Shown here one piece after another: positions 20,596 to 29,649 of a stretch of 32,019 nucleotides of DNA. This DNA comes from Verrucomicrobiia bacterium Tous-C4TDCM (GTDB lineage: Bacteria; Verrucomicrobiota; Verrucomicrobiia; Verrucomicrobiales; Akkermansiaceae). How positions within the stretch are numbered: the first letter of the stretch is position 1; every line of letters begins with the position of its first letter. Made by a program: the position numbers and the translations under genes. Location of the stretch: the NCBI GenBank assembly GCA_002304315.1, contig NEUO01000027.1:1-32019 (forward strand). The letters are read 5' to 3'. The notes beneath the pieces were generated by a model. That model was not told the DNA's origin and did not search any database. It was given only the letters and a program-made list of their open reading frames with translations.

Positions 20596-20835
20596 ATGCA
20601 CATTTCCCTCACTCCCGAACTGGAGAATGCGGTGAAGGCCAAGGTCTCGTCCGGACTTTACAACAACGCCAGCGAGGTGGTCCGCGAGGCGCTCCGGCAA
20701 TCGCTCGCCCGGGATCAGGACAATCAGTGGATCGCCCGCGAAGCCGCCATCGGATTCGCCCAATTGGAAGCAGGCCAGACGGTGGAAGTCCGGTCGGAAC
20801 AGCACTTCATCGACCTCGTACGCGGCGGCGCATGA
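20596..20835 (+). CDS. parD: ParD-type antitoxin (CopG/RHH)
   Basis: 79 aa. Residues 1-45 match ParD (MHISLTPELENAVKAKVSSG, YNNASEVVREALRQSL), a ribbon-helix-helix DNA-binding dimer. The C-terminal part (QDNQWIAREAAIGFAQLEAG) is the usual toxin-binding tail. It overlaps parE by 4 nt (20832-20835). The antitoxin is intact although its toxin is truncated (next entry), so it may still act as a repressor or an anti-toxin for another ParE. Confidence 0.88.
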   Translation: MHISLTPELENAVKAKVSSGLYNNASEVVREALRQSLARDQDNQWIAREAAIGFAQLEAGQTVEVRSEQHFIDLVRGGA

Positions 20836-23276: not shown

Positions 23277-23435
23277 ATGACTCCTCCCCACACTTTCCTC
23301 GATCTCTTCTGCGGCTGCGGCGGCTTCAGCCTCGGGCTCATTCGGGCCGGCTTCCAAGGCCTTGCCGCCATCGACTTCAATCCCGAGGCGATCCAGGTTT
23401 CTTCCGAGGCACTCCGCTTCGTCCGCAATTCCTGA
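23277..23435 (+). pseudogene. 5' stump of a C5 cytosine DNA methyltransferase (dcm-like)
   Basis: 52 codons and a stop. The N-terminus is unmistakably a C5 methyltransferase: TFLDLFCGCGGFSLGLIRAG is motif I (SAM binding, FxGxGG type), and AAIDFNPEAIQV is motif II. After about residue 42 the similarity ends (SSEALRFVRNS then TGA). Everything downstream, including the catalytic PC motif IV and ENV motif VI, is absent. The gene cannot encode an active enzyme. The Vsr repair gene normally partnered with Dcm is found about 4.3 kb away in the opposite orientation, and is also cut at its 3' end (27747-28058). Confidence 0.85.
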
Positions 23436-23447
23436 ACCAAAGCTCCC

Positions 23448-23738
23448 ATGTATACGACGCTTCAGCGATACTTCCCGGACAGCGAGGTGTCCATGGTTCA
23501 TCAGGACGGCTCGAAGACACCGGCCGATAATGGCTTGGAGGTCGTTTTGTTCACACGCGAGAACGAAACCGATCCGTGCTGCGCGGAACTCTCCAGCGAA
23601 GACTTCGGTGCGGAGATCGGTTTTACGTTTGAGGGAAGTAAGTTACTCGACTTTGACGGAGCTTTCAGCCTGCCGGGAGAAGTGGCCCGCTTGCTTCGCG
23701 AGCTGGGCTACGTGGTGCCGGACGAATTCCTGGCCTGA
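23448..23738 (+). CDS. Small hypothetical protein in the defence island
   Basis: 96 aa, ATG at 23448, only 12 bp after the methylase stump and 30 bp before the mcrB-like gene. It is acidic (ENETDPCCAELSSEDFGAEI) with alternating strand-like segments (IGFTFEGSKLLDFDG) and a helical ending (GEVARLLRELGYVVPDEF). I recognise no family. Its codon use and length are gene-like. Because it fits tightly between the stump and the restriction genes it may be an immunity or accessory factor of this module, but that is position-based inference. Confidence 0.6.
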   Translation: MYTTLQRYFPDSEVSMVHQDGSKTPADNGLEVVLFTRENETDPCCAELSSEDFGAEIGFTFEGSKLLDFDGAFSLPGEVARLLRELGYVVPDEFLA

Positions 23739-23768
23739 AATTGAACTTTAAAGCCATCCCGGAACAAC

Positions 23769-25304
23769 GTGGACAAATCAGTAATTGAGCGCTGCATCGA
23801 CGATTTCGCTCAAGCGGGATTCGAATGCGAGGAGGAGTTTCTCAGACGGTTTGTTGCCTCGCTTGCCGCCAAAAGATTTGTGATTCTCACCGGCTTGTCC
23901 GGCTCTGGGAAAACCAAACTGGCGCAGGCTTTCGCGAAATGGATTTCGCCAACTCAAGTGAGACCAGATGCCTTCGAGAAGGGTGTCCGGATCGGAAACA
24001 GCTATCGAGTAATGGACTCTGACAGAATTGCCGTCGAGTTCTGGAACCCTGATGACGAAAAGGTTGTTTTGCCTCGAAGGCTCATTGATGAGTGGGCTGA
24101 CTTCATCGAACTCGATCCTAGCCTTGCTTCGCTTCCCTCCCAAGAGATTCGATCCAAGTTTAAGGAGCAGTGTGACACCAAGTTCGCGAAGCATGCGATT
24201 TTTTGGGACACTCACTTGAAACCAGCTGCACTCGCCGTCTTAGAGAGTAGGAAAGCCTCTCAGATGTCGTTCCGTTGCCACGAAGTGGTTGCCGTCGGGG
24301 CTGATTGGACCAGCAATGAGCAAGTGCTTGGCTATTCGGACGGTTTGGACCGCAAAAGGTACGTTCGTACGAAAGCGCTCGACCTAATCCTGAATGCCGC
24401 GGCGTCTCCCGATGTTCCCCATGTCCTCATCCTGGATGAGATGAACCTTTCGCACGTGGAGCGCTACTTCGCGGATCTTCTCTCTGCGATCGAGTCCGGG
24501 GAACCGATGCACCTTCATGGCGACGAAGGAGACGGTGGGGGCACTGAAATCCGGAGCGGTGTGCCGCCGAGGCTCAAGCTTCCGGAGAACCTCTTCATCA
24601 TCGGGACCGTCAACGTCGACGAAACGACATACATGTTTTCGCCAAAGGTGCTGGATCGGGCCAACGTGCTTGAGTTCCGAGTCACGGAAAAGGCGCTTCA
24701 GAATTTCCTCGGGTCGCCGAGCGGCATCGACGATTCCCTCATCGAGGCAAAGGGTGCAGCTCATGCTTCAAGCTTTCTTAAGTTGGCCCGTTCGGACCAC
24801 GGGTTGACGCCCGACGAACTCGTTTCCGTGAACCGGGAAATTCTACTGTTCTTCAAGGCGCTCCAACCCGCGGGGATCGAGTTCGGATTCAGAGTCGCGA
24901 AAGAGATCGTGTCGTTCGTCGGTCAGCACAAGCGACTCGCCGGGGACGCATGGTCGCTCCGAACTGCATTGGACGCCCAAGTGGTTCAGAAGCTCTTGCC
25001 GAAGCTTCACGGTGCCCGTCACAAGCTGGAACCGATATTGTGGTCGTTCGCGCTCTTATGCCACAGCCCTCGCGTGGAGTCCGGTGACGCGGAGGAAGTG
25101 AACAACGGCTTCCAGGCAATTCTCACGAGAGCGCTATCCGCGTTCGAGATGAATGACAATGCCTTCGATCCCCTTGGAACCCGTGGGAATGGGGAGCGAG
25201 TTCTCCTGCCAGCCGAAGCTCATTTCCCGCTGAGCTTTGATAAGGTTGTCCGCATGTTGGCTTCGGTTCGGATGAACGGCTTCACCAGCTTTGCCGAGGG
25301 TTGA
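23769..25304 (+). CDS. McrB-like AAA+ ATPase (DUF2357-system clade)
   Basis: 511 aa with a GTG start. A short N-terminal helix leads into the AAA+ core: Walker A GLSGSGKT (~42-49), the strand VAVGADWTSNEQVLGY (~174-189), Walker B VLILDEMNLSHVERYFADLL (~219-238), and the McrB-type sensor segment IGTVNVDETTYMFSPKVLDR (~278-297). Between Walker A and the GADWTSN strand lies an inserted ~110-residue stretch (~62-172). There is no separate N-terminal target-recognition domain like that of E. coli McrB (which has a DUF3578 domain). It should form a hexamer that drives the nuclease encoded just 4 bp downstream. Lower GC than the flanks suggests acquired DNA. Confidence 0.87.
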   Translation: MDKSVIERCIDDFAQAGFECEEEFLRRFVASLAAKRFVILTGLSGSGKTKLAQAFAKWISPTQVRPDAFEKGVRIGNSYRVMDSDRIAVEFWNPDDEKVVLPRRLIDEWADFIELDPSLASLPSQEIRSKFKEQCDTKFAKHAIFWDTHLKPAALAVLESRKASQMSFRCHEVVAVGADWTSNEQVLGYSDGLDRKRYVRTKALDLILNAAASPDVPHVLILDEMNLSHVERYFADLLSAIESGEPMHLHGDEGDGGGTEIRSGVPPRLKLPENLFIIGTVNVDETTYMFSPKVLDRANVLEFRVTEKALQNFLGSPSGIDDSLIEAKGAAHASSFLKLARSDHGLTPDELVSVNREILLFFKALQPAGIEFGFRVAKEIVSFVGQHKRLAGDAWSLRTALDAQVVQKLLPKLHGARHKLEPILWSFALLCHSPRVESGDAEEVNNGFQAILTRALSAFEMNDNAFDPLGTRGNGERVLLPAEAHFPLSFDKVVRMLASVRMNGFTSFAEG

Positions 25305-25308
25305 TCGA

Positions 25309-27651
25309 ATGGACTCGCACGACGCCTTGCTCGATTTCTTGGACGAGCGAGGCTCGGTGATCGGAACACTCAGGATTGTTCAGGCCGACAACGGACCGCC
25401 GGGCCTCCGGCTCCTTTCGCCGCTGGAAGCGAGGGAACACGGTGAGGAACGCGTCCAGTTGATCGAGGCACGGGCTTACGACTTTGAGCTTCAGAGCGGT
25501 CGTCATGGGATCCGCATCTGCCTGGGAGGGATTTGCAAACCGAGTTCGATTCGTCCGGAAATCGGGCGGATTGAACCCGGACTCGAAACCGGCCTTTGTG
25601 AGATTTGCCCCGAAGATGCGGCCAGCGGGACAATTATCTCACGCGCCGCCATCGAGGTCGTCTCGTCGAAGATTGATTACCGGTCGGACTACCGGGGAAT
25701 GCTCGGTTTCATTGCTGCCGAGTGCAGCCAGCTCCTTTTCGATATTCGTGCCAGCGGCCGGTTGCGGCTGGTCTCATCAAACAAGGTCGATTCGGCCAAC
25801 CACTTGCGGCAATTCGAGTTTCTGAGTGCAGAGCTGACTTCTCAGCGCTTCAAGGCCGCGCTGAAGAGGATCATGGCCATGCCCCACCAAAGGCTCGAAC
25901 CCGTGGCACAGCGGGTGAAGGTCGAGAGATTGCGCCGAGGCGGGAAAGAGTTTGCGCGCCAGATCGGACTGTCCGGTTCACGGCGTCCACTTCTTGGCGA
26001 ATCGACCGTCGCCCGGTTGATGGCGGACCTTGATGTTCCTGAACCGTCTCTTCCTGCATGGATCGTCCAGCGAGCCCAGATCGAGTCTCTCGACACACCC
26101 GAGAACAGGTTCGTGAAGCACGTGCTGGTCACTTTTTCTGCCTTGTTGGATCGCATTGAAGCGGCATTGAAGGCCCGGCCTACTTTGGCGCAATCGAGGT
26201 TGATCCGCCGCGTGGAGCTGCTCCGGCAGATACTGAATGAACCGCTTAGGCATCAGGTGCTCAAGAGCCTCCGCGAGCCACGGATGCTGCCAATGGGCAG
26301 CCCGGTGCTTCAGCGGAAGTCCGGTTATCGTGAGGTGCTTGAGGCGTGGCTGAAGTTTGAAATGTCCTCACAGCTCGCATGGCACGGGGGAGACGACGTT
26401 TACTCGGCGGGGAAACGCGACATCGCCACGCTCTACGAGTACTGGGTGTTCTTCCAACTGCTCCGGCTGTTTCAGGACAAGTTCGGCTCCAACAATGCCG
26501 CGGCGGCAGCGCTATTCGAAGCCAGCAATGGCGGCCTGAGTCTCCGATTGAAGACGGGCGAAGCATTGGGAATTCACGGAAGCTGCGTCCGCGGTTCCCG
26601 GAGACTTTGCGCCAGATTGAGCTTCAACCTGACCCAAGGCGCGAGCCGCGCCAGGGAGGTTCCTGGCTCGTGGACACGCCGGATGAGGCCCGATTACACG
26701 CTCTCTTTCTGGCCCGAGGGATTTAGCATCGACGAAGCGGAAGCTCAGGAGCTTGCCGTGCATGTCCATTTCGACGCTAAGTACCGCGTCGAGAACATCA
26801 GCGACCTATTCGGCCAGGAGGATGATTCGTCGAGTATCGAAAAGCGCGACGAAAGCCGGGGCAACTACAAGCGCGCCGACCTGTTGAAAATGCATGCTTA
26901 TCGGGATGCGATCCGAAGATCGGAAGGTGCCTACGTGATCTATCCGGGTGATAGCCATGCCTCGGCGCGCTTCCAGGGATTCCACGAGATTCTCCCGGGC
27001 CTCGGCGCGTTTGCGATCAAGCCAGGTCCGGATGGGCAGGGTCTCGGACTTCAACAGCTTTCCCGTTTCCTCGATGAAGTCAGCGATCATGTGTGCGACC
27101 GGACCACCGCTCGCGAACGGCACAGCTTCCATCGATTCGACACGTATCGGGAAGCTGCAAAGGCAGCCGGTCCTTTGGGGATCATGCTTCCTGAGAGGGA
27201 CGAGGAATCCGGCCAGAGAGCAACCCCGCCAGCGGAGCACCCTGTTCTCGTGGGGTGGTGCGATGGTTCAGCGCAACTTGATTGGATACGAAAGAGCGGG
27301 CTCTACAACCTCCGGGCCGGAACCCGGCGAGGATCAGTCCGGCTCGATCCAGCGATCACAGCGGCTCGCCATCTTTTGTTGCATTCCAACGAGGGTAAGG
27401 CGCTTCCCGGACTCTGGCGCATCAAAGTGCTTGGACCGCGGATCTTCACGGCGGACGAACTGCTTCGAACAGGCTATCCGTCAAAGCCCGATCCCGATGC
27501 GATCTACGCCGTCTTCGATGTGGAGGTGGACAAGTTCTATTCGGAGTGGAAGTGGGACTACTCGCGGCTCGCGGGACGCATGGAGGGCCGTGCTTCCGCT
27601 GCACCCTTTGCTGTGAGCTTGGCAGCCGTGCTTTCGATGCATCGACCTTGA
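25309..27651 (+). CDS. McrC-like nuclease: DUF2357 plus PD-(D/E)XK (DUF524)
   Basis: 780 aa from the ATG at 25309 (a GAGGG ribosome site is at 25296-25300; a TTG at 25291 is the longer alternative). The N-terminal ~300 residues fit DUF2357 (HGIRICLGGICKPSS, ISRAAIEVVSSKIDYRSDYR, ESLDTPENRFVKHVL). The middle is ALYEYWVFFQLLRL-like (here IATLYEYWVFFQLLRLF). The nuclease centre is RPDYTLSFW (Asp ~462), HVHFDAKYRVE (Asp ~489, Lys ~491) and DLLKMHAYRDAI, as in DUF524 PD-(D/E)XK proteins. A C-terminal ~200-residue domain follows (AARHLLLHSNEGKALPGLWR). All catalytic residues are present. Together with the ATPase it forms a two-component restriction system; whether it reads methylated DNA is unknown. 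Confidence 0.85.
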   Translation: MDSHDALLDFLDERGSVIGTLRIVQADNGPPGLRLLSPLEAREHGEERVQLIEARAYDFELQSGRHGIRICLGGICKPSSIRPEIGRIEPGLETGLCEICPEDAASGTIISRAAIEVVSSKIDYRSDYRGMLGFIAAECSQLLFDIRASGRLRLVSSNKVDSANHLRQFEFLSAELTSQRFKAALKRIMAMPHQRLEPVAQRVKVERLRRGGKEFARQIGLSGSRRPLLGESTVARLMADLDVPEPSLPAWIVQRAQIESLDTPENRFVKHVLVTFSALLDRIEAALKARPTLAQSRLIRRVELLRQILNEPLRHQVLKSLREPRMLPMGSPVLQRKSGYREVLEAWLKFEMSSQLAWHGGDDVYSAGKRDIATLYEYWVFFQLLRLFQDKFGSNNAAAAALFEASNGGLSLRLKTGEALGIHGSCVRGSRRLCARLSFNLTQGASRAREVPGSWTRRMRPDYTLSFWPEGFSIDEAEAQELAVHVHFDAKYRVENISDLFGQEDDSSSIEKRDESRGNYKRADLLKMHAYRDAIRRSEGAYVIYPGDSHASARFQGFHEILPGLGAFAIKPGPDGQGLGLQQLSRFLDEVSDHVCDRTTARERHSFHRFDTYREAAKAAGPLGIMLPERDEESGQRATPPAEHPVLVGWCDGSAQLDWIRKSGLYNLRAGTRRGSVRLDPAITAARHLLLHSNEGKALPGLWRIKVLGPRIFTADELLRTGYPSKPDPDAIYAVFDVEVDKFYSEWKWDYSRLAGRMEGRASAAPFAVSLAAVLSMHRP

Positions 27652-27746
27652 AAGCAAAGCCGTCGTGACAATGGGATTTCCGCGACGGCGGAACTGGTGG
27701 CGGTGACAGAGAGCGGCAGCAGCCATCTGATCCAACTGCGGGATTT

Positions 27747-28058
27747 TCAGATTGTGATTAGCGGGCAAACGACCGCGACGATCCGCTTCCACCAGTCGGG
27801 GCGGGACTGGGGGAGCCGGAAGTCCGGGCAGTGTTCGTGGCCGTGCCAGAAGCAGCCGTGGAGGAAGACGACGGTGCGGAATTTCGGCAGGACGATGTCG
27901 GGCCGGCCGGGCAGCAGGCGGTTCTTCGGGCCGGCGACGGTGAAGCGGTAGCCGAGCCGGTGGAGCATGGAGCGGACGAGCCGCTCCTGCCGGGTGTCAC
28001 GACCGCGGATGCGGGACATGACTTCGGAGCGCTTTTCCGGGGTGAAGACGTCGGCCAT
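27747..28058 (-). pseudogene. vsr: Very short patch repair endonuclease Vsr, 3'-truncated
   Basis: 103 codons from the ATG at 28058; a longer frame opens upstream, but MADVFTPEKRSEVMSRIRGR is the standard start of Vsr. Present are GRPDIVLPKFRTVVFLHGCFW (containing the catalytic Asp and His) and HGHEHC (Zn ligands). After RPDWWKR the sequence diverges to IVAVVCPLITI and stops. Missing are the KIxxN helix, the LxxxGWxV strand and the WEC segment with the last Zn-ligand Cys, about 35-50 residues. Activity is doubtful. Vsr repairs T:G mismatches made by Dcm deamination; the only methylase in the window is a stump. Confidence 0.82.
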
Positions 28059-28380
28059 GGGACAAGCAAGCCTGGAACCCGGCCGCAGGCCATGAAAAGG
28101 ACGGGGCGGAGCGGGCGGGGCCGCCGGGGGGCATGGGAGCGCTGGCTTTCCCGGCCTTCGTAGCCATGGCGAAGTAGGCAGCCGGCTTGGACGGTCGGGC
28201 TGGGGCGGCCGACTGAAGTCAGCGCTCCCGCCGGGGGACCGGCGATCCGCCCGCAGGCCATGAAAAGCCCGGGGCCGGTCGGAAGGAGGAGCGAAGAGAT
28301 CGAACCCTTCTTCGCGATCCCACTTCACGAGAGCTTCGTGGGAAAGGCGCTACGAAGGGCAGGCCGCGGAGGCACGGAGG
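27941..28380 (+). repeat. Direct repeat block, copy 1 (vsr 5' end and upstream)
   Basis: The first ~140 bp (27941-28080) match 29426-29565 almost exactly, starting at TGAAGCGGTAGCC. Further blocks match at 28207-28249 with 29607-29649 and at ~28323-28376 with ~29652-29700. The copy near 29.5 kb is shorter because of internal deletions. The two copies are in the same orientation. Confidence 0.75.
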
Positions 28381-28494
28381 TCGCGGATGGACAGCCATTC
28401 CAAGGACCGAATGTCTCGTGGCTTATCCCAAACGACAGCGATGCAAGGGACGATTGCGACTCGCCAAATGCGTTCCCCCTGTCAGTTTGCCGCC
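28059..28494. other. Repeat-rich intergenic region upstream of vsr
   Basis: 436 bp with no real gene. It has repeat R2 (28207-28249), two CAGGCCATGAAAAG motifs (~28084 and ~28254) and a direct-repeat block shared with 29426-29700. The minus-strand frame that extends vsr upstream here is repeat-encoded and Pro-rich, not a real N-terminus. Confidence 0.6.
28207..28249. repeat. REP-like repeat R2, copy 1
   Basis: GGCCGACTGAAGTCAGCGCT, then CCCGCCGG-N-GGACCGGCGATCCG. Two small palindromes are visible: GACTGAAGTC and CCGCCGG...CCGGCG. The second copy is at 29607-29649 with one difference. Confidence 0.75.
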
Positions 28495-28734
28495 ATGACT
28501 CAGCCTTCCGCCGTCGTTCACACAGCCGAAACGCCCCGTGGCACGCTGATGTGGCGCGTCGTGCCTTTGGCGGAGGCGGATCGTGATTTCGATCTTCATT
28601 TCTGGCAATCGCAGCCGCCATCCGTCCGCTTCGCCGCGGCGTGGGAGTTGGTGGAAAACGCCTGGGCAATCAAAGGCCGCCCCGCTCATGAACTCCGACT
28701 TCAAAGAACTGCTCACCATTTTGAACGACTGTGA
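28495..28734 (+). CDS. Small protein upstream of nucleotidyltransferase
   Basis: 79 aa from the ATG at 28495. The central part (DLHFWQSQPPSVRFAAAWEL, VENAWAIKG) and the end (ELRLQRTAHHFERL) match a recurring type of short protein I recall encoded just before DUF6036-type nucleotidyltransferases, with FW-S-x-xP-R and RLQR blocks. It overlaps the next gene by 47 nt in another frame, which suggests tight coupling. A toxin-antitoxin-like pairing is possible. Longer in-frame starts (28387) run into repeat sequence and are unlikely. Confidence 0.65.
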   Translation: MTQPSAVVHTAETPRGTLMWRVVPLAEADRDFDLHFWQSQPPSVRFAAAWELVENAWAIKGRPAHELRLQRTAHHFERL

Positions 28735-29143
28735 GGTTCGTTATCTGGTCGTCGGAGGTTATGCATACATCCACTACGCCGAGCCCCGATACACCAAGGA
28801 CATCGACCTTTGGATCGAGCCCACTCCGGAAAACGCGTTGCGGTTGCGCGAGGCTCTCGTTCGGTTCGGCGGCTGGGTCGATGGCATGACCTTGGAGCAC
28901 TTCACCACCGAGCGCACGATGTTTCAAATCGGCCTGCCGCCCTGCCGCGTGGACTTCCTCACCAGCATTCCCGGCCTGGATTTCCGTCTCGCGCACGCGG
29001 CCCGCAAGACCGCCGACATTGAGGGCATCGCCATTCCCTTCCTCTCCCTTGCCGATCTCATCACCGCCAAACGCACAGCCGGTCGCGAACAGGACTTGCG
29101 CGACATCGCCGGTCTGGAGCGGGTCTTAGGTGGGGAGGAATGA
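28688..29143 (+). CDS. MNT/DUF6036-like nucleotidyltransferase
   Basis: 151 aa from the ATG at 28688; the in-frame ATG at 28583 adds unconserved residues that overlap the small gene. The nucleotidyltransferase core is VVGGYAYIHYAEPRYTKDID, followed by LWI: a GG loop followed by the DxD metal motif (DID). RVDFLTSIPG supplies the third acidic residue. The C-terminus FLSLADLITAKRTAGREQDL is common in this family. Such proteins act as antitoxins or toxins by modifying tRNA or proteins. The neighbouring small protein is the likely partner. It lies between two copies of the vsr-end repeat. Confidence 0.85.
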   Translation: MNSDFKELLTILNDCEVRYLVVGGYAYIHYAEPRYTKDIDLWIEPTPENALRLREALVRFGGWVDGMTLEHFTTERTMFQIGLPPCRVDFLTSIPGLDFRLAHAARKTADIEGIAIPFLSLADLITAKRTAGREQDLRDIAGLERVLGGEE

Positions 29144-29245: not shown

Positions 29246-29428
29246 ATGACAACGGAAGTTGTATCACCGAAGAACCGGCCGAAGAAGAAGACGACGATGG
29301 TGAGCCATGCGAAGAGTTCGCTGGGTAAAAGCGCGACCGACAAGCAGGGCGAGGCGGTGGTGGAGGAGCTTAGGAAAGCGAAGAAGCTGGTGATCGACGA
29401 GAAGGGTGCGGTGACCTATCGAATTTGA
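29246..29428 (+). CDS. Short Lys-rich hypothetical protein
   Basis: 60 aa from the ATG at 29246 (an in-frame GTG at 29225 is the alternative). It is basic at the start (KNRPKKKTT) and ends with a helix-strand pattern (VVEELRKAKKLVIDEKGAVT). The coding pattern is plausible but I recognise no family. Its stop codon TGA is also the first three bases of the second vsr repeat copy, so its natural end may have been altered by the duplication. Confidence 0.45.
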   Translation: MTTEVVSPKNRPKKKTTMVSHAKSSLGKSATDKQGEAVVEELRKAKKLVIDEKGAVTYRI

Positions 29429-29543
29429 AGCGGTAGCCGAGCCGGTGGAGCATCGAGCGGATGAGCCGCTCCTGCCGGGTGTCACGACCGCGGATGCGGG
29501 ACATGACTTCGGAGCGCTTTTCCGGGGTGAAGACGTCGGCCAT
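29426..29543 (-). pseudogene. Second vsr 5' fragment
   Basis: A 118-bp piece matching the first ~39 codons of vsr (MADVFTPEKRSEVMSRIRGR, then DTRQERLIRSMLHRLGYRF), cut at the same boundary as the repeat block. There is no downstream Vsr sequence, so this is a duplicated gene end and not a gene. Confidence 0.8.
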
Positions 29544-29606
29544 GGGACAAGCAAGCCTGGAAACCGGCTGCAGGCCATGAAAAGCCCGGGGTCGATCGGG
29601 CGGGCC

Positions 29607-29649
29607 GGCCGACTGAAGTCAGCGCTCCCGCCGGAGGACCGGCGATCCG
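29607..29649. repeat. REP-like repeat R2, copy 2
   Basis: Same 43-bp sequence as at 28207-28249 with one change (GGAGGACC for GGGGGACC). Confidence 0.75.

Follow-up and report, generated by a model that had tools for sequence, protein, structure and literature searches.

The 32,019-base stretch analysed here, hereafter the window, is an entire contig (NEUO01000027.1; C127 in our set) of the Akkermansiaceae genome Verrucomicrobiia bacterium Tous-C4TDCM (G000), whose assembly comprises 4.28 Mb in 206 contigs and is 72.3% complete. Between positions 23277 and 28058 it carries two restriction genes flanked by gene fragments. On the forward strand, a C5 methylase stub (23277–23435) is followed by a 96-codon open reading frame (ORF) that we call orf96 (23448–23738), a gene for a McrB-like AAA+ ATPase of the R1 type (23769–25304) and a gene for a nuclease with DUF2357 and PD-(D/E)XK domains, corresponding to the R2/McrC-type subunit (25291–27651); on the reverse strand, convergent to the nuclease gene, lies a stub of vsr (stub 1; 27780–28058). 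A preliminary description of this DNA had drawn the same layout, and every one of these features lies where it had placed them. It had read the locus as a convergent dcm/vsr pair whose middle was replaced by an incoming McrBC module, an origin that our comparisons contradict. Judging from sequence, we consider it likely that the locus is a decayed LlaJI/PcaI-type restriction-modification operon in which the methylase was deleted in place, vsr was truncated and the restriction genes were kept, a judgement that covers anatomy and origin alone. As in operons of that type, a McrB-like AAA+ subunit adjoins a DUF2357/PD-(D/E)XK subunit. Because an intact cognate C5 methylase is lacking in the operon, we file the window as a derivative of the LlaJI/PcaI type and not as a working member.

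The methylase stub encodes 52 amino acids and matches the C5 methylase family over positions 2–37 of 324 only (PF00145, E 7.6e-8); the catalytic PCQ motif and motif X of C5 methylases are not in its sequence. Alignment of the junction with that of a congener (G129) divides the stub into about 41–43 codons from the 5′ end of the gene, covering the motif I region, and an 11-codon tail. The preliminary description had seen only 42 5′ codons; that portion is indeed present, but the fragment does not end with it. The stop codon of the stub lies 12 nt before the ATG of orf96, and the complete methylase of the nearest relative (L119) stops 13 nt before its own orf96. Because these spacings agree, the stub probably arose by internal deletion rather than 3′ truncation; its tail is probably the native C-terminus of the methylase.

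We ran a pattern scan of 84,980 species genomes with the DUF2357 protein and examined the best 80 of the 275 relatives found. In L119 (nuclease 59%, McrB 60% and orf96 53% identical), methylase, orf96, McrB and DUF2357 genes follow one another in this order on one strand, and the methylase is complete (PF00145 match at 4–375, model positions 1–320 of 324). This order recurs in L120, whose methylase is damaged at its 3′ end (PF00145 only to 285 of 324). Since both loci are colinear with the window and the stop-to-orf96 spacing is alike, we take orf96, McrB and DUF2357 to be the restriction part of an operon whose first gene survives as the stub. A vsr gene lies directly 3′ of DUF2357 in six of the 80 loci; four of these share the strand of DUF2357 (L128, L131, L133 and L136) and two are convergent (L153 and L169), with Vsr verified by Pfam in L131, L153 and L169. 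From its place and orientation we infer that vsr stub 1 was formerly part of this operon; the methylase and vsr stubs are, as the preliminary description had held, remnants of one ancestral unit, with the methylase at one end and most likely a convergent vsr at the other. Searches for nearer relatives in the phylum matched eight of 387 genomes including that of the window, the other seven being only 39–42% identical; plasmid searches returned no match, and viral contigs gave one distant locus (29%).

The restriction genes look intact, as the preliminary description had noted: conserved residues are kept, and 3.9 kb contain neither frameshift nor stop. The McrB-like protein (511 aa) keeps Walker A, Walker B and an NxD-type motif (NVD), with conserved Walker A, LDEMN and VNVDETT stretches, and because Walker A starts at about residue 41 there is no long N-terminal recognition domain. 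It retains 131 of 136 columns invariant in seven relatives, a deviation of 3.7% against 1.5–26% when each relative is left out in turn; the nuclease (DUF2357, PF09823, E 9.6e-38; PDDEXK_7, PF04411, E 1.9e-26) retains 223 of 236, including the PD and FDAK stretches, a deviation of 5.5% against 0–13%. The highest leave-one-out deviation is that of the outlying L125, and both window proteins fall within the range of the relatives. The McrB-like protein matches PADLOC PDC-M26A (E 2.1e-46), with weak Pfam AAA matches, none above the cut-off, and no NCBIfam match; the nuclease has no PADLOC or NCBIfam match. Sequence searches of solved structures gave three weak matches for McrB, none for DUF2357 at E ≤ 0.1 and none for the C-terminal domain of the nuclease at E ≤ 10. 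In neutral simulations, about 2.5 or 6 stops are expected at 2% or 5% divergence, with 6% and 0 of 400 runs, respectively, remaining stop-free. Were the methylase deletion old, both restriction genes would have remained open without their methylase for perhaps 2–5% divergence.

The small conserved operon protein encoded by orf96 belongs to no known family (at E ≤ 0.01 neither Pfam nor PADLOC nor NCBIfam gave a match), and its predicted model, with a confidence (predicted local distance difference test, pLDDT) of 74, has no fold match at E ≤ 0.001. Homologs at 51–53% identity stand between methylase and mcrB in L119 (98 aa) and L120, the only two of the 80 loci with one. At closer range the gene was found in two of 18 genus genomes (its own included) and two of 386 genomes of the order, the sole other being G129. 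Between G000 and G129, orf96 is 89% identical with a ratio of non-synonymous to synonymous rates (dN/dS) of 0.30 (P 0.01–0.03), and it is under mild constraint only.

G129 also carries the same methylase junction, with a stub 92% identical, and orf96 is followed there by what are apparently about six codons from the start of mcrB and then by unrelated sequence; no DUF2357 match was found in this genome at E ≤ 1e-60. A truncated end independent of mcrBC, which the preliminary description itself had regarded as fatal to a replacement, is thus present in this congener. Because G129 shares the junction and orf96 without mcrB or DUF2357, deletion of the methylase, or at least a propensity for it, either came before the present state of mcrBC or is independent of it. 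In G129, up171 and HD472 are truncated too (L051 2139–2242 and 1950–2114), up171 retaining both ends. Internal deletions that spare both ends of a gene are thus a repeated feature of this island, affecting the methylase, up171 and the PIN-domain gene described below.

At the far end of the operon, vsr stub 1 corresponds to the first ~90 residues of full-length Vsr proteins of the family (141–166 aa), matching PF03852 over 1–71 of 74 and TIGR00632 over 1–89 of 119. Homology to full-length vsr stops near 27789, and no convincing 3′ part of vsr was found between stub 1 and DUF2357 (best E 0.037, with a 220-base subject). Vsr proteins have their last zinc ligand in a distal W[E/A]C stretch; in stub 1 this stretch is gone, in agreement with the loss described earlier. 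A second vsr stub of 41 codons (stub 2; 29421–29543, reverse strand) is 93% identical to stub 1 over 41 aa and lies inside a direct duplication that spans the 5′ end of vsr with its upstream region (copy 1, 27941–28126, reverse strand; copy 2, 29426–29611; 186 nt, 94%); both had been missed by the preliminary description. A complete Vsr fold is absent, with stub 1 stopping at about codon 90 and stub 2 at codon 41. Stub 2 begins at the stop of an internally deleted PIN-domain gene (29246–29428, forward strand), which is 91% identical over its last 54 residues to the 235-aa version in G129 (PF18475 PIN7, 1.1e-19). The junction between stub 2 and the PIN gene is common to the vsr stub of G129; stub 1 was not seen in G129. 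The sharing of alleles by stubs 1 and 2 that G129 does not have points to a late duplication or gene conversion of the vsr stubs.

The two vsr stubs enclose a two-gene cassette (28387–29143, forward strand) of a small ORF and a nucleotidyltransferase (DUF6036/DUF2204/AbiEii-like), whose homologs in L059 (7487–8219) and L087 (6–675) each have a small-ORF homolog beside them. Three of 41 vsr-chosen sequences (the window, G008 and G109) have the nucleotidyltransferase and small ORF within about 2 kb of a vsr gene or vsr stub. A scan of the family found a vsr match in 55 of 195 genomes; in ten of these besides its own (G008, G010, G030, G051, G056, G076, G105, G126, G129 and G187), at least one vsr match spans no more than 69 of the first 92 residues. 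Contig ends, as for both matches in G129, or local alignment of diverged genes may account for some of these. A number of the vsr fragments have as neighbours relatives of an HNH_2 protein or of a ~1,050-aa protein taken for a helicase. Upstream of vsr, at 28040–28400, short sequences are repeated in the genome (39 matches including their own place, with 40 of 143 candidates scored), possibly representing repetitive extragenic palindromic (REP)-like elements. A ParD-like gene lies to the left of the island in the window (20596–20832) and, 92% identical, between vsr and alcohol dehydrogenase in G129 (L050 5474–5710); this difference in placement indicates that the island was rearranged.

Methylase loss can be viewed across the whole set of relatives. 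The window and the 80 loci divide into 23 with a complete C5 methylase, four with a truncated one, five with an amino-methylase-like motif, 29 with none found and 20 that reach a contig edge; 'none' mostly means that at least 2.5 kb upstream of mcrB was covered, with L121 (0.9 kb) and L123 (1.9 kb) assigned by hand, and methylase fragments at the edge of a stretch (L156, L167) were left out of the truncated class. On a tree of 79 nucleases, from which L190 and L192 were left out (nuclease under 600 aa), these labels change 36 times against a shuffled mean of 42.2, a number as low arising in 2 of 200 shuffles, with the contig-edge label included and L151 entered as 'none' though a near-complete methylase is present. 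The methylase labels are weakly clustered, and their scattered presence suggests many gains or losses. The window belongs to a supported set of seven with L119–L124. Within this clade, three of the four loci with a methylase and intact restriction genes have a truncated methylase (the window, L120 and L122, the last to 129 of 324), against one of 22 outside it (L162, to 46 of 324), a difference with a Fisher p of 0.006 from hand-entered counts and post hoc, L190 being left out here as well for its truncated nuclease.

These comparisons lead us to the following reconstruction. The ancestral operon would have comprised a C5 methylase, orf96, the McrB-like ATPase and the DUF2357/PD-(D/E)XK nuclease, with a convergent vsr whose product would have repaired deaminated 5-methylcytosine. 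Deletion of the methylase in place would have left its 5′ end, probably with its own stop, and would have spared the sequence upstream, orf96 and the two restriction genes. Once the methylase was gone, Vsr would have had no substrate, which would explain the decay of vsr. The McrB-like ring and the nuclease may still cut DNA, and the cell would survive because its genome is no longer at risk from the enzyme.

Several observations weigh against this reconstruction. The closest matches of the stub are methylases of another operon type, at 78% identity to L111 and L112 and 60% to L119; the restriction genes of L111 and L112 are entirely different (their families named by Pfam in L111), and this operon type had no vsr match in the downstream stretch in three of three cases. 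No vsr lies directly 3′ of DUF2357 in the clade of the window: L121 has none in 5.99 kb downstream, L122 has a distant vsr (33%) 1.3 kb downstream, and for L119, L120, L123 and L124 only 0.38–1.36 kb of downstream sequence is covered. No methylase was found upstream of mcrB in L121 (895 bp), L123 (1.86 kb) or L124 (326 bp), where contig ends limit the sequence. The clade is small (seven tree rows and the broken L190) and drawn from contigs of metagenome-assembled genomes, its Fisher test being post hoc, and the genome of the window itself is 72% complete, so that an unseen methylase could protect it. Lastly, codons 1–41 of the stub differ between G000 and G129 by eight synonymous changes and one non-synonymous change; unconstrained simulations expect 6.3–6.9 non-synonymous changes at nine sites, giving the observed value a P of about 1e-4 to 3e-4 for this one sequence pair. 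Such an excess would be unexpected for a gene dead since the species split. Divergence is higher in the tail, at 5 of 36 sites, than in codons 1–41, at 9 of 123, and the 76 bp before the ATG are 3.9% divergent against 10–17% further upstream. Two histories would account for this: two recent deletions at the same position, in a methylase that had until then stayed functional in each lineage, or one old deletion with the stub still selected as a peptide.

The preliminary description was right to see a puzzle in a restriction enzyme that has lost its methylase. One outcome, tentative but to be taken seriously, is that the enzyme was retargeted or became modification-dependent in the manner of Type IV systems. 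The last ~135 residues of the nuclease (646–781; 27226–27633, forward strand) bear on this. In the AlphaFold2 model, where their pLDDT blocks range from 79 to 93, they are predicted to form a YTH-like fold: among the best 50 of 212 Foldseek matches to the PDB with E ≤ 10, 47 are named YTH or Mmi1 structures. The other three (4r3h_A, 4r3h_B and 4r3i_A) are presumably YTHDC1. The best E value is 3.1e-3, with none at or below 0.001, and template modelling scores by query are 0.26–0.38, the query being partly disordered. A hidden Markov model of the domain, trained for three rounds on the same proteins, matches all 81 DUF2357 proteins. Because the domain is in all 81, with or without a methylase, it marks the subfamily and is silent on the mode of action, although a YTH-like fold is suggestive of a need for modified DNA.

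A second outcome, which we regard as no more and no less probable than the first, is that the enzyme is inactive, silent or recently orphaned. By this account the operon would simply be dying, the methylase having gone first and the restriction genes being recently silent or inactivated by changes that the sequence does not reveal, with G129 one step further on; we hold it as a tentative explanation within the reconstruction above. The vsr stubs, the deleted PIN gene, the cut up171 and HD472 in G129 and the loss of mcrB there past its first codons are all consistent with it, as is the end branch of the window nuclease, 0.61 against about 0.2 from the shared fork to L119 or L120, although L123 (0.58) and L124 (0.69) have branches as long. 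The open reading frames of both restriction genes, without the stops expected at 2% or 5% divergence, and the retention of conserved columns as in the relatives argue against it.

On a broader view of the clade, restriction would outlive modification repeatedly: several independent in-place deletions of the methylase would have spared the upstream region, orf96 and the nuclease, because the complex, with its YTH-like domain, would have turned from cutting unmethylated DNA to recognising DNA that is modified or foreign in some other way, the 5′ fragment of the methylase still being under protein-level selection. We think this unlikely; if true, the window and G129 would represent the switch and its aftermath.

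Protection by another methylase in trans is an unlikely outcome for the enzyme. A second C5 methylase covering the same sites, which the preliminary description had named as evidence against its own reading, would account for survival within the reconstruction above, and the genome does contain two complete C5 methylases (on C142 and C4), with room in a 72%-complete assembly for others. These two, which may or may not protect the same sites, share no more than 28% and 24% identity with the methylase of L119, and each adjoins a gene of its own that Pfam does not name and whose role as partner is assumed.

It is quite improbable that the stub is a working small protein, with a role of its own or in translational coupling to orf96. 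The synonymous excess in codons 1–41 and the low divergence before the ATG would fit such a role, but two deletions at one position of a full methylase that was functional in each lineage would leave the same pattern, the evidence is a single sequence pair, and we know of no function for a 41-codon motif I fragment. Replacement of the middle of a dcm/vsr pair by mcrBC is very improbable, for although a real parallel exists in L076 (C5 methylase, RE_Eco29kI and convergent vsr), orf96 and both restriction genes are ordered as in L119 and L120, the stub keeps nearly the orf96 spacing of L119, G129 has the junction and orf96 without mcrB or DUF2357, vsr stands directly behind DUF2357 in six loci, and the L119 methylase is itself 72% identical to those of L111 and L112.

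Several characterised systems are close to the operon. The gene set of L119, and of the window before the deletion, is like that described for PcaI (PcaRCI) of Pectobacterium carotovorum; PcaI is described with three genes and no orf96, its methylase is intact with the site CCNGG, it restricts unmethylated DNA, and the main text does not mention vsr (PMC8989522). PcaIB has a C-terminal extension, described there as of unknown function (PMC8989522), which may be the YTH-like domain. LlaJI of Lactococcus lactis, LlaI and BsuMI likewise have C5 methylases followed by a McrB-like R1 and a PD..D/ExK R2; in LlaI and BsuMI the McrB-like subunits (337 and 343 aa) lack a long N-terminal part and the restriction cassettes comprise three ORFs, as in the window, whose McrB has 511 aa. 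LlaJI differs in its two methylases and in a specificity that resides in the N-terminal half of R1 (PMC1459862). Both LlaJI and PcaI cut unmethylated DNA with the methylase intact (PMC1459862, PMC8989522). The Type IV system McrBC has the McrB plus DUF2357-PD-(D/E)xK architecture of the window, and a census of McrBC systems links the NxD-type McrB branch, which the NVD motif of the window fits, to methylases (as it does NxxD) and to extra McrC domains (PMC11090510). E. coli McrBC differs in having no cognate methylase and targeting modified cytosine, and the window in carrying a YTH-like domain on its nuclease subunit. The motif of E. coli McrBC is reportedly NxxD.

A limited literature search found no report joining Vsr, McrB and truncation or BsuMI with ydjA, and nothing relevant by title on methylase pseudogenes; we claim no priority for methylase loss in such operons. 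The authors of the LlaJI study proposed two modes of McrBC-like enzymes that exclude each other, one paired with a methylase and acting on unmethylated DNA, the other stand-alone and acting on methylated DNA (PMC1459862). The window could be a module passing from the methylase-paired to the stand-alone mode, an orphan on its way out, or an enzyme protected in trans. Together with L119, which has kept its methylase, and G129, which has lost the restriction genes, it makes this transition between modes testable.

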